This document shows positions 47,159 through 55,389 of a DNA stretch of 64,000 nucleotides, one piece after another; the stretch's first letter is position 1; each line of letters begins with the position of its first letter. The translations under genes were made by a program, and so were the position numbers. The notes below the pieces were generated by a model. The model saw nothing but the letters and a program-made list of their open reading frames with translations, was not told where the DNA came from and searched no databases. Source of the DNA: Gracilinema caldarium DSM 7334 (lineage in GTDB: Bacteria; Spirochaetota; Spirochaetia; Treponematales; Breznakiellaceae); contig NC_015732.1 of NCBI RefSeq assembly GCF_000219725.1, forward strand, positions 186,001 to 250,000, in the 5' to 3' direction.

Positions 47159-47884
47159 ATGTTTAAGAACATCATATTTGATTTATATGGAACCTTAGTA
47201 GATATCCGGACTGATGAACAGAAGCCTGAATTTTGGCAAGCCTTTTCCGGCGTTTTACAACAGGAAGGCCTGTCTTATAACCCTGTTGAATTACAAAAGC
47301 GATATCTCTCTCTTGTTCAGAAAGCCCTTGCCCGGATCACCCACAGTCCCTACCCTGATACCAGGGTGTATTTAGTTTTAGAAACCTTGTTTCACCAGCA
47401 TTCAGTATCGGTTACACCGGAAAAACTTCTCTGGATCACACAGCAGTTCAGAAAACTTTCAACAGAATATATTCGGCTGTATCAGGGTATCCCTGAAATG
47501 TTGCAAAAACTGAAAGAGCACGGTTTAAAACTTTATATACTTTCTAATGGTCAGCGGGAATTTTCAGAAGGAGAGCTCAGGGAACTTGGCATATATGAAT
47601 ATTTTGACGGGTTTTATTTTTCCGCAGATTATGAGATGAGTAAGCCGGATCCTCAATTTTATCGTGTTTTGCTAGAACGGGAGCATATTACCCCATCAGA
47701 ATGTCTTATGGTTGGTAATGATCATACAACCGATATAGCCGGTGCGAATGCAATTGGTATGGCTTCGGTATATATTCAGAGCAATCATTCACACGAGGTT
47801 TCCCTCGAGTCTGTTCCAAGCACGTATAAGGTTGCTCAAACGCAGAATCAGGGAAGAGCCTTGGAAAGTATTCTATTAAAATAA
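47159..47884 (+). CDS. HAD-superfamily hydrolase, subclass IA
   Basis: A 241-residue phosphatase with IIFDLYGTLVDI (motif I; Asp nucleophile, with Tyr where the second acidic residue is usually two positions later, i.e. DLYGT), YILSNGQREFSE (motif II), KPDPQFYRVLL (motif III) and MVGNDHTTDIAGANAIG (motif IV). The DLYGT form of motif I is shared by a set of HAD nucleotidases and haloacid dehalogenase-type proteins, some lacking the second Asp. ATG at 47159 is chosen since the family begins there; AAGGCG lies 12 nt before. An open frame upstream to 47051 has no support. It stands alone. Confidence 0.87.
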   Translation: MFKNIIFDLYGTLVDIRTDEQKPEFWQAFSGVLQQEGLSYNPVELQKRYLSLVQKALARITHSPYPDTRVYLVLETLFHQHSVSVTPEKLLWITQQFRKLSTEYIRLYQGIPEMLQKLKEHGLKLYILSNGQREFSEGELRELGIYEYFDGFYFSADYEMSKPDPQFYRVLLEREHITPSECLMVGNDHTTDIAGANAIGMASVYIQSNHSHEVSLESVPSTYKVAQTQNQGRALESILLK

Positions 47885-47947
47885 AGATATTTATTATCGG
47901 TTAGAAGTATTATCGATTATTTAACAAAAGATTAAAGATGTTTTAAC

Positions 47948-47996
47948 TATAATGACTTAAGACATACAACCAGAAATGTAAATGGAGGTTGTATGT
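47948..47996 (+). promoter_or_regulatory. -10 box and start-codon hairpin of the metallophosphoesterase gene
   Basis: A consensus TATAAT lies at 47948-47953 (no good -35), predicting a start near 47960. ACATACAACC (47962-47971) is the exact complement of GGTTGTATGT (47987-47996), with a 15-nt loop. The right arm contains the last two G of the GGAGG site and the whole ATG (47993-47995). Confidence 0.7.
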
Positions 47997-49888
47997 ACAA
48001 ATTTATACGTTCACTTATGTTTGCGATTCTTATGGTGATCGCACCTTCGCTATTCAGTGACGATTTGGTTGTTCTTCCCAGGGATGCGATTTGGCGTTTT
48101 AATGATTCAGGTGTTGATTTAGGTAGCGTTTGGAGAGAGCCCGGTTACAAAGATTTCGAATGGAAGCGAGGTCGAGCTCCCCTTGGGTTTGGAGATGATG
48201 TTTCTGAAACAGATCCAAATATACCTTTGGCGACAACTGTAAGTTTTGGGGCTGATCCACAAAATAAGCATATGACTACCTATTTTCGTACTGAAATAGA
48301 GGTACCTTCTTCTTATAAAGATTCAAAGGAGCTCGAAGTATACATCCATGTTGATGATGGGGCTGTAGTATATTTTAATGGAGTCGAAGTTTTTCGTCGT
48401 GGAATTAAAGATGATAGTAAAGTTGCATACAACACCCCTGGTAAGTTTAAACCAAAGGAAGAAACCTTTACACTTCCTGCATCGTTACTTAAGGTTGGCA
48501 GTAATCTAATTGCTGCAGAAGTTCATCAGGATGGAGTGGATAGTTCAGATCTTTGGTTCGAAATGGGTCTGAAAGCCCGAGGTGTTTCTGCTCATACAAC
48601 TACTAGTACAACTACATCATCTGGGGCTATTGTTCGTTTTATTCCTGATTCTTCCGCTCCCCGTGGTTCAATTACTAAAGTAACCCAGATGTTTGGATCT
48701 GATCCTGCGACAACCCGTGCTTTTACTTGGTATACAACCTTTGCTTCTGGTTCTACCGATGTTCAGGTTGTAGAAGTTATCGGCGCTTCACCAAATTTTT
48801 CAAAGGCATTCACGTTTTCAGGACGTGTAAAACCCTCGTATAACAGTCCGGACGAATTGGTTCATATGGCCGAAGCTGTAGGTCTTAAAAGTGGTACTTC
48901 TTATTGGTATCGAGTAGGTGATGCTAAACTTGGTCTTTGGAGCGATGTTGGTACCTTTAAAACTATGGATAATAAAAAAGGTCCTTTTACCTTCATCAAC
49001 CTAGCAGATACACAGGCAAAAACGGAGGATGAAGCGATCCTGTCAGCTAAGACCTTAGCTGATGCTGTTCGTACCGTTAAAAATGCTGAGTTTATGATAA
49101 TTAACGGTGATATTGTAGATACAGGTCGTAATGAAAAACAGTGGGACTGGGTTCTCGGTCATGCTGCTGAAACAATGCGAAATATAGCTTTTATTCCCGC
49201 TGCGGGAAACCATGATGAAGACCCTTATTCCTTCATTGAGCATTTTAATCTTCCTGTGCCTAAAGGGGCTGATATAAAGACTGGTGCCTATTATTCTTTT
49301 GATTACAAAAATGCTCATTTTATTATCTTAAACAATAATGAAGACAGCCCTGAATGGGCGGATTTTTCTCTTCAACAGATTGAATGGTTTAAGTCTGATG
49401 TGCTGGCCGCTAAAGCACGGGGTACTGATTGGATTATACTTATTGTGCATAAAGGGCCTTACACTACTTCTAATCATGCTACGGATGAAGATATTACAGG
49501 CCCCAATGGAGTACGTACCAAATTTGCACCTCTCGCTGCACAGCTTGGTGTTGATCTTGTTTTTCAAGGACATGATCACAGCTATTCAAGGACTAAATCA
49601 CTAAATGGTGTAGTTTATATTACTCCAGGAACTGCAGGGCCAAAGGTATATTATCTTAATAAAAAAATTGATTCTGCATATTGGGCAAATTTTGTGGTAG
49701 CGAAGGAACATCCAGCATCAAAATATGGATCTGACCCGGCTGATCAAAGTAGGCCTATGCGGGGAGTGATTCAAAATTTTCTTGCGGTTACTATTAATGG
49801 TAAAAACGTAAGCATAACAGCCTATGAAGTCGATCGCATCAAGGGTGGATTACCTTATGTAATTGATACATTGGAGTTAAAAAAATAA
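47993..49888 (+). CDS. Exported calcineurin-type metallophosphoesterase
   Basis: A 631-residue protein with a signal peptide (residues 1-22, ILMVIAPSLFS then DDLVV). The N-terminal ~200 residues form a beta-rich domain (TYFRTEIEVPSS, VYIHVDDGAVVYFNGVEVFR) like a carbohydrate- or ligand-binding module. Then a Thr/Ser hinge, an Fn3-like domain with WYRVGDAKLGLWSDVGTFKT as in purple acid phosphatases, and a metallophosphoesterase domain with the metal motifs NLADTQ, NGDIVDTGR, AAGNHDED, VHKGPYTT and FQGHDHSYSR. It probably acts outside the inner membrane on phosphate esters. GGAGG precedes the ATG, but a hairpin covers it. Confidence 0.9.
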   Translation: MYKFIRSLMFAILMVIAPSLFSDDLVVLPRDAIWRFNDSGVDLGSVWREPGYKDFEWKRGRAPLGFGDDVSETDPNIPLATTVSFGADPQNKHMTTYFRTEIEVPSSYKDSKELEVYIHVDDGAVVYFNGVEVFRRGIKDDSKVAYNTPGKFKPKEETFTLPASLLKVGSNLIAAEVHQDGVDSSDLWFEMGLKARGVSAHTTTSTTTSSGAIVRFIPDSSAPRGSITKVTQMFGSDPATTRAFTWYTTFASGSTDVQVVEVIGASPNFSKAFTFSGRVKPSYNSPDELVHMAEAVGLKSGTSYWYRVGDAKLGLWSDVGTFKTMDNKKGPFTFINLADTQAKTEDEAILSAKTLADAVRTVKNAEFMIINGDIVDTGRNEKQWDWVLGHAAETMRNIAFIPAAGNHDEDPYSFIEHFNLPVPKGADIKTGAYYSFDYKNAHFIILNNNEDSPEWADFSLQQIEWFKSDVLAAKARGTDWIILIVHKGPYTTSNHATDEDITGPNGVRTKFAPLAAQLGVDLVFQGHDHSYSRTKSLNGVVYITPGTAGPKVYYLNKKIDSAYWANFVVAKEHPASKYGSDPADQSRPMRGVIQNFLAVTINGKNVSITAYEVDRIKGGLPYVIDTLELKK

Positions 49889-54468: not shown

Positions 54469-55389
54469 TTAATAGGTCACATCGTCACTGCGGGAAACCT
54501 TAAGCTGAATAATGGTAAGTATCAGCATGGTTACAAAAAGCAGGATACTCATGACGCTGGCCCGCCCAACGTTGTAGTCCTTAAGGGCAGTGTTGTAAAT
54601 ATTCAGGGTGATCACATTTATTGGTGCCTTAGGCGCACCGCTTTGGGTAAATAGAAATTGGGTCGAGAAGGTCTTAAGACACTGGAGCATGGCCACAATC
54701 GACACCAGGGCTGTAGTGGGTTTTAAAAGAGGAAGCGTTATCTTAAAAAAGGCCTGGCTCCTGCTTGCCCCATCGATGGTCGCCGCTTCGTATATGACGG
54801 GGGGTATTTTTGTAATGCCCGTAATATAGAGTACGGTAAAATACCCAATATATTTCCAGAAATACACAATCATGGTGGAAAGTTGAACCATTTCACCGCT
54901 GGAAAGCCAGCGCATATCTACACCGCTTGTATGGCGGAGGGCATTCACAACCTGATTCGCAATACCGGTGGGAGTAAAAATCTGCATCCAGATAAGGGCC
55001 GCAACGGCAGAAGAAAGCACCGCCGGAGAATAATACAACAATTGCCAAAGCCTGAAATTTCTTCCTTGCAGGGTAATTAAAATAGCAATTAAAAGGCTAA
55101 ACACAACCAGGGGAATAAAGGTCCCCAGGGTAAAGGTGAGGGTTGCCCGAACGGAATTCCAAAAATCCGGGGACTGTAAAACGAACATATAGTTACCCAG
55201 GCCGATAAATCGGGGCGGCAAAGGAGAAATCATGTTCTTTTTAAAAAAACTAAGGGTAAAAGCATTTATTATCGGATAAAACGAAAATATGGAAAAAAAT
55301 ATGATTGCGGGAATAACAAAATACCAACCCCATCGGGCTTGAACCTGCTCTACCCCGTGCCGTTTTTTACTTTTCTTTTCTGCTTTCAT
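54469..55389 (-). CDS. Sugar ABC transporter permease (MalF type)
   Basis: A 306-residue permease with six membrane helices, beginning WGWYFVIPAIIFFSIFSFYPIINAF. The EAA motif is YEAATIDGASRSQAFFKITLPLLKP. It forms the membrane channel with the MalG-type permease. The start at 55389 follows GGAGGT; an ATG at 55407 is further upstream. A strong hairpin lies between the binding-protein gene and this start, likely allowing more binding protein than permease to be made. Confidence 0.94.
   Translation of the reverse strand: MKAEKKSKKRHGVEQVQARWGWYFVIPAIIFFSIFSFYPIINAFTLSFFKKNMISPLPPRFIGLGNYMFVLQSPDFWNSVRATLTFTLGTFIPLVVFSLLIAILITLQGRNFRLWQLLYYSPAVLSSAVAALIWMQIFTPTGIANQVVNALRHTSGVDMRWLSSGEMVQLSTMIVYFWKYIGYFTVLYITGITKIPPVIYEAATIDGASRSQAFFKITLPLLKPTTALVSIVAMLQCLKTFSTQFLFTQSGAPKAPINVITLNIYNTALKDYNVGRASVMSILLFVTMLILTIIQLKVSRSDDVTY

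Follow-up and report, generated by a model that had tools for sequence, protein, structure and literature searches.

Phosphatase gene and its start hairpin

In the window, by which we mean the whole 64,000-nucleotide stretch of DNA analyzed, a phosphatase gene begins inside a perfect inverted repeat that lies just downstream of a putative promoter. The features concerned are the following.

47920–47948, forward strand: Pho-box-like repeats TTTAACA, ATTAAAG, and TTTAACT in 11-bp phase, the second of which ends 10 bp before TATAAT
47948–47953, forward strand: predicted −10 hexamer TATAAT, with no good −35 element at 16–18 nt
47962–47971, forward strand: left arm of the hairpin, ACATACAACC, read directly, the stem being found by script and by folding; predicted 5′ end of the mRNA
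47972–47986, forward strand: 15-nt loop, AGAAATGTAAATGGA, which carries the first three nucleotides (GGA) of the Shine–Dalgarno (SD) sequence
47984–47988, forward strand: SD sequence GGAGG, with the ATG 4 nt downstream
47987–47996, forward strand: right arm, GGTTGTATGT, which carries the last GG of the SD sequence and the entire ATG
47993–49888, forward strand: gene for a 631-aa protein with a purple acid phosphatase N-domain, a calcineurin-like phosphoesterase domain, and an N-terminal hydrophobic segment

The segments follow one another from 47962 to 47996 in the order ACATACAACC, AGAAATGTAAATGGA, GGTTGTATGT, and the arms form 10 uninterrupted Watson–Crick pairs. A perfect 10-bp hairpin had been described here in the first-pass annotation of this DNA, and its arms were confirmed at exactly 47962–47971 and 47987–47996. 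As also claimed, the right arm contains the whole ATG (47993–47995) and part of GGAGG, of which the stem takes just the last two G. With the start codon and part of the SD sequence paired in the predicted mRNA, the hairpin as folded is of the ribosome-binding site (RBS)-occluding class, in which the start codon and/or the SD sequence is paired. RBS-occluding hairpins at the 5′ terminus are an already known kind of element.

The product of 47993–49888 matches the Pfam families PF16656 and PF00149 above the cut-off, and purple acid phosphatases of known structure also match it. Judging from its N-terminus, the phosphatase is presumably exported. The distribution of the gene is patchy: of 200 family genomes, 4 carry it, all three other sampled members of the genus lack it, and the phylum sample contained no further orthologs. 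As those three genomes are devoid of the gene, there is no close sequence for a test by compensatory changes. The closest ortholog, in genome G022, shows 64% identity. The ortholog of genome G038 (L005) was excluded, since its 5′ end consists of a truncated and rearranged copy of the N-terminal domain, with no identifiable start. At L005:1397–1530, it starts in a truncated second copy of this domain (HQDDGQSSDLWFELGI is repeated), and the gene appears rearranged or fragmentary. Homologs on Priestia plasmids are devoid of the N-terminal domain, and one of them has just a 6-bp stem over its start.

Rarity of the stem and openness of the RBS

The background for comparison consisted of about 284 kb of sampled genome stretches, window included, with 156 called genes whose starts were assigned by a simple script, not a gene finder. 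Perfect stems of at least 10 bp within −60 to +10 arose in about 0.1% of Markov-1 sequence trials and were found in 4 of the 156 real genes, the phosphatase gene included; for stems of at least 9 bp, 6 of the 156 were listed. A perfect stem longer than 7 bp that overlaps the SD-to-start segment occurs in the phosphatase gene only (10 bp, against at most 7 bp in the other 155). The folding z-score of the whole region is only −1.6, and what is unusual is thus the position and perfection of the stem, not the total energy. The gene at 54469–55389 on the reverse strand was also seen to have a perfect stem, of 11 bp (CCCTGGCGGGT/ACCCGCCAGGG) with a 4-nt loop, about 20–46 nt before its start codon.

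With a 33-nt leader, opening the SD-to-start segment is computed to cost 11.7 and 9.0 kcal/mol at 37 and 50 °C, where the background means are 4.7 and 3.0 kcal/mol, respectively. This places the phosphatase gene second among 99 strong-SD genes. The single higher one of the other 98 looks like a mis-called internal start from a reading of its protein, and the higher scorers in the wider gene set look the same from a reading of theirs. When the leader was set to 53 nt instead, the gene dropped to the top 5–10%, so the claim about its rank hangs on the predicted start site.

These counts bear on the explanation that the inverted repeat arose by chance and is tolerated, whether on account of ribosomes that cope with it at 50 °C or of a low demand for the protein. 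The four genes with stems of at least 10 bp are in line with chance, as is a hand estimate by which perfect 10-bp stems over starts should number one or a few in 2,869 genes; moreover, conservation is backed by the G022 ortholog only, and via a different stem. On the other hand, RBS regions are normally more open, as their mean opening energy indicates, and all four orthologs compared below have a perfect stem of 8–10 bp in the same interval. We consider chance an unlikely explanation, if still one to be taken seriously.

Predicted start site and Pho-type promoter

The hexamer TATAAT predicts a transcription start near 47960, and the first-pass annotation had accordingly placed the start about 2 nt before the left arm. 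This placement is reasonable and, in spite of the missing −35 element, is now backed by a Pho-box-like promoter spaced as in pstS and phoU. The phoU and pstS promoters of the same genome share TTTTAATCAWNTTTTAACAWATTCTTTAYAGTNTNTTCAT in 11-bp units that end 10 bp before TAGATT (spacing by eye). These units were noted at L058:2878–3010 for phoU and on L057 for pstS, with window positions 47892–47953 listed alongside. When the repeats are read so that 10 bp separate the second one from TATAAT, the start again comes to lie near 47960, and the likeness to the Pho boxes of pstS and phoU-phoB-phoR supports the predicted site.

The computed resemblance can be put in figures. Scored against the pstS/phoU consensus, the region upstream of the phosphatase gene reaches 23/37, the top value among 156 genes (maximum of the other 155, 22); the lead is narrow, several sub-motifs entered the comparison, and the best register sits one repeat off with respect to the −10 hexamer, so that Pho control of the gene is judged likely from the sequences, not proven. 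In the promoter of the G022 ortholog, the last two consensus units match at 14 of 16 positions, a value reached by 0 of 54 in the background, and TTAAC repeats in 11-bp phase also precede pstS in both G022 and G156. The genome contains pstS and, at 844264–847947, a phoU-phoB-phoR operon, in which PhoU matches its family above the curated cut-off and PhoB is the best family match but stays below the curated cut-off. As for members of a Pho regulon, the box lies at the proper distance from the −10 hexamer, and PhoB–PhoR is encoded in the genome.

A stricter Pho pattern was dropped as evidence because it was derived from the window itself and its matches with three mismatches were near the control level. 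Two further observations concern these regions. A direct repeat, TATTATCGGTTA and TATTATCGATTA, 16 bp apart, occupies 47892–47919 of the window, upstream of the Pho-box-like repeats. The pstS leader (L057) has a possible 6-bp hairpin, ATTGAC-TAGGAG-GTCGAT (by eye), with the SD sequence in the loop, directly before the ATG.

Folding and the effect of temperature

In the folding calculations, every 5′ end tried between 47900 and 47961 left the ATG with a pairing probability of 0.97 or more, a level kept up to 60 °C. The probability of the hairpin was about 0.97–0.99 at both 37 and 50 °C for 5′ ends at 47945–47961. For 5′ ends at 47930–47935, it fell to 16–24% at 37 °C. This decrease would suit a switch, read by a protein, a small RNA, or an alternative upstream structure, in which the hairpin is the off-state, and the upstream GATGTTTTAA can indeed pair with the beginning of the left arm (TTAAGACAT) if the RNA begins before about 47935. 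However, the ATG remains paired, with downstream letters, even in the alternative fold, so that such a switch gains nothing, and we regard it as extremely improbable. A search of Rfam gave no match up to E = 5 in 47700–48200, which counts against a known thermometer family as well as a switch.

The first-pass annotation had taken the geometry for that of an RNA thermometer or another translational switch. The geometry stands, with the hairpin about 2 nt after the predicted +1, and the step to a thermometer is not established. A dedicated thermometer would have been selected to turn translation of the phosphatase on at growth temperature and off in the cold. The start codon and partial SD sequence in the stem agree with this, as does the growth range of the organism, described as Spirochaeta caldaria H1T (now Treponema caldarium), which is 25–60 °C with an optimum at 48–52 °C (PMC3739177). 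Known RNA thermometers have imperfect pairing with mismatches or noncanonical pairs (PMC3669281), whereas the present stem is perfect and free of such destabilizing mismatches. A melting model of a 93-nt transcript leaves the stem 95% formed at the limit of growth, 60 °C; the fraction falls to 83% at 70 °C and to 33% at 80 °C, and a simple melting thermometer is therefore unsupported. In the same model, the opening energy of the Escherichia coli ibpA thermometer starts from 7.7 at 25 °C and has dropped to 5.1 by 42 °C; since opening the phosphatase RBS at 50 °C (9.0) is costlier than opening ibpA at 25 °C, by this yardstick the hairpin would not open within the growth range.

The second yardstick is the MS2 coat hairpin, for which the fit ln(1/ER − 1) = −13.8 − ΔG/RT at 42 °C has been published (PMC9894550). 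Carried over to the phosphatase hairpin, it gives translation of 0.8%, 8%, 58%, 77%, and 97% at 37, 42, 48, 50, and 55 °C, respectively, with the half-maximum at about 47–48 °C, on the assumption that the E. coli rate constants hold at all temperatures and with energy parameters newer than those of the fit. Under this calibration, the RBS might be released gradually around the growth optimum. The hairpin of the G022 ortholog follows nearly the same curve, but any RBS hairpin of equal energy yields such a curve. The two yardsticks disagree, as the modeled stem is mostly closed at 70 °C and the MS2 calibration places release near 48 °C. There is no obvious reason for heat control of a phosphatase. 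A dedicated thermometer seems to us distinctly unlikely.

Leaders of the orthologs

Perfect stems are also present within −60 to +10 in the leaders of the orthologs from G022 (9 bp), G156 (10 bp), and a contig labeled Anaerolineaceae (L006, 8 bp). The four orthologs' stems of 8–10 bp are each at roughly the 2–7% level in the sampled genes. They differ in sequence, position, and pairing partners, and the loops are 15, 24, 5, and 7 nt. In G022, the favored fold (ATCTTCCTTA/TAAGGAGGAT) buries the whole SD sequence AAGGAGG with a probability of about 0.95 at 37 °C. Its letters are unrelated to those of the window hairpin, and its computed stability is nearly equal at every temperature (−11.3 versus −11.5 at 37 °C and −7.9 versus −8.1 at 50 °C). 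With a 53-nt leader, 0–2 of 35 genes of G022 exceed this occlusion, which appears only with leaders of at least about 50 nt and is ordinary with 33 nt. In G156, the SD sequence is paired in a weaker outer stem, and 4 of 20 background genes exceed the occlusion in most settings. The Anaerolineaceae ortholog leaves the SD sequence free, with no occlusion. The check on conservation in relatives suggested in the first-pass annotation gave a mixed picture, with occlusion in G022 under the 53-nt leader, weak occlusion in G156, and none in the Anaerolineaceae contig. The recurrence of stems points to a constraint on the leader at the RNA level, on the thin evidence of two or three cases with different anatomy.

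The stems in G156 and L006, which do not cover the SD sequence, are also what one would see if the 5′-terminal stem guarded the mRNA against decay that depends on the 5′ end, with occlusion of the start codon as a by-product. The window stem would begin about 2 nt into the predicted mRNA, as in known stabilizing 5′ hairpins, of which that of ompA is an example with such placement. Stabilizing hairpins normally leave the RBS free, whereas here the start codon is buried, which makes protection of the mRNA very improbable as the main function.

As DNA, the same letters form a perfect palindrome just downstream of the −10 hexamer, where a dimeric repressor bound from about +2 to +37 could block transcription. 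A genome-wide search with up to three mismatches found no second copy of the hairpin pattern, and the half-site ACATACAACC occurs six times genome-wide, against about seven expected from the GC content of 45.6% (computed by hand). These searches led us to reject a regulon-wide operator. Furthermore, the orthologs keep neither the sequence nor the spacing of the arms, and the centre-to-centre distance of 25 bp would demand a local regulator with a single target. The choice between RNA and DNA had been left open previously; the lack of a second copy and the retention of SD occlusion in G022 with unrelated letters favor an RNA element, and a local operator is kept as a minor, very unlikely possibility.

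Proposed function

Here, we propose that the inverted repeat acts as RNA, namely as a 5′-terminal RBS-occluding hairpin that limits translation of a Pho-controlled mRNA for an exported phosphatase. We hold this explanation tentatively, as the likeliest of those considered and one that may quite possibly be correct. A PhoB-type promoter would respond to phosphate starvation and start transcription from about 47960. The mRNA would then open with the hairpin covering the start codon and part of the SD sequence, and the 30S subunit would have to wait for, or capture, the open form. In this way, the hairpin would cap translation of the phosphatase. Because occlusion weakens as the temperature rises, the cap may hold firmly up to about 42 °C and be mostly lifted around the optimum of 48–52 °C; the reduced translation and the size of this temperature effect are inferences. 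A bolder version, in which transcription upon phosphate starvation is joined with an RNA thermometer that has a perfect stem and is tuned to near 48 °C, and relatives conserve the stability of the RBS hairpin and not its sequence, seems highly improbable.

If the hairpin does limit translation, it would offer a small natural test of how thermophile ribosomes handle a start codon that is paired throughout, and of perfect stems as temperature-graded controls at 40–55 °C. In the literature searched, a single paper brings together RNA thermometers, thermophiles, and spirochetes, and its subject is Listeria. The Pho-box-like motif provides a starting point for predicting the phosphate regulon in these treponemes.

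Comparison with known systems

The putative promoter resembles those of the Pho regulons controlled by E. coli PhoB and Bacillus subtilis PhoP in its 11-bp-phased repeats, which end 10 bp before the −10 hexamer and adjoin a phosphatase gene. It differs in that the repeats are TTTAAC, not TGTCA; within the genome, the box is less like the pstS and phoU boxes than those two resemble each other.

The closest counterpart of the proposed RBS-occluding hairpin is that of the MS2 coat gene studied by de Smit and van Duin, which encloses the start codon together with a partial GGAG, and whose stability controls translation (PMC9894550). In the phosphatase mRNA, too, a single stem would contain the start codon and part of a GGAG-type SD sequence, and its stability should set translation. 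The MS2 hairpin belongs to an internal cistron of a phage RNA and is unrelated in sequence, whereas the phosphatase stem is at a predicted 5′ end and its effect is a computed one. ROSE-like (E. coli ibpA), FourU, and hsp17-type thermometers share the pairing of the RBS in a short 5′ leader, which becomes weaker with heat. Their stems are imperfect and weak and open over the growth range, in contrast to the phosphatase stem, which is perfect and closed in the melting model. Stabilizing stem-loops of the ompA type likewise lie within a few nucleotides of the 5′ end, but the RBS is free in those, whereas the start codon of the phosphatase gene is buried in the stem.
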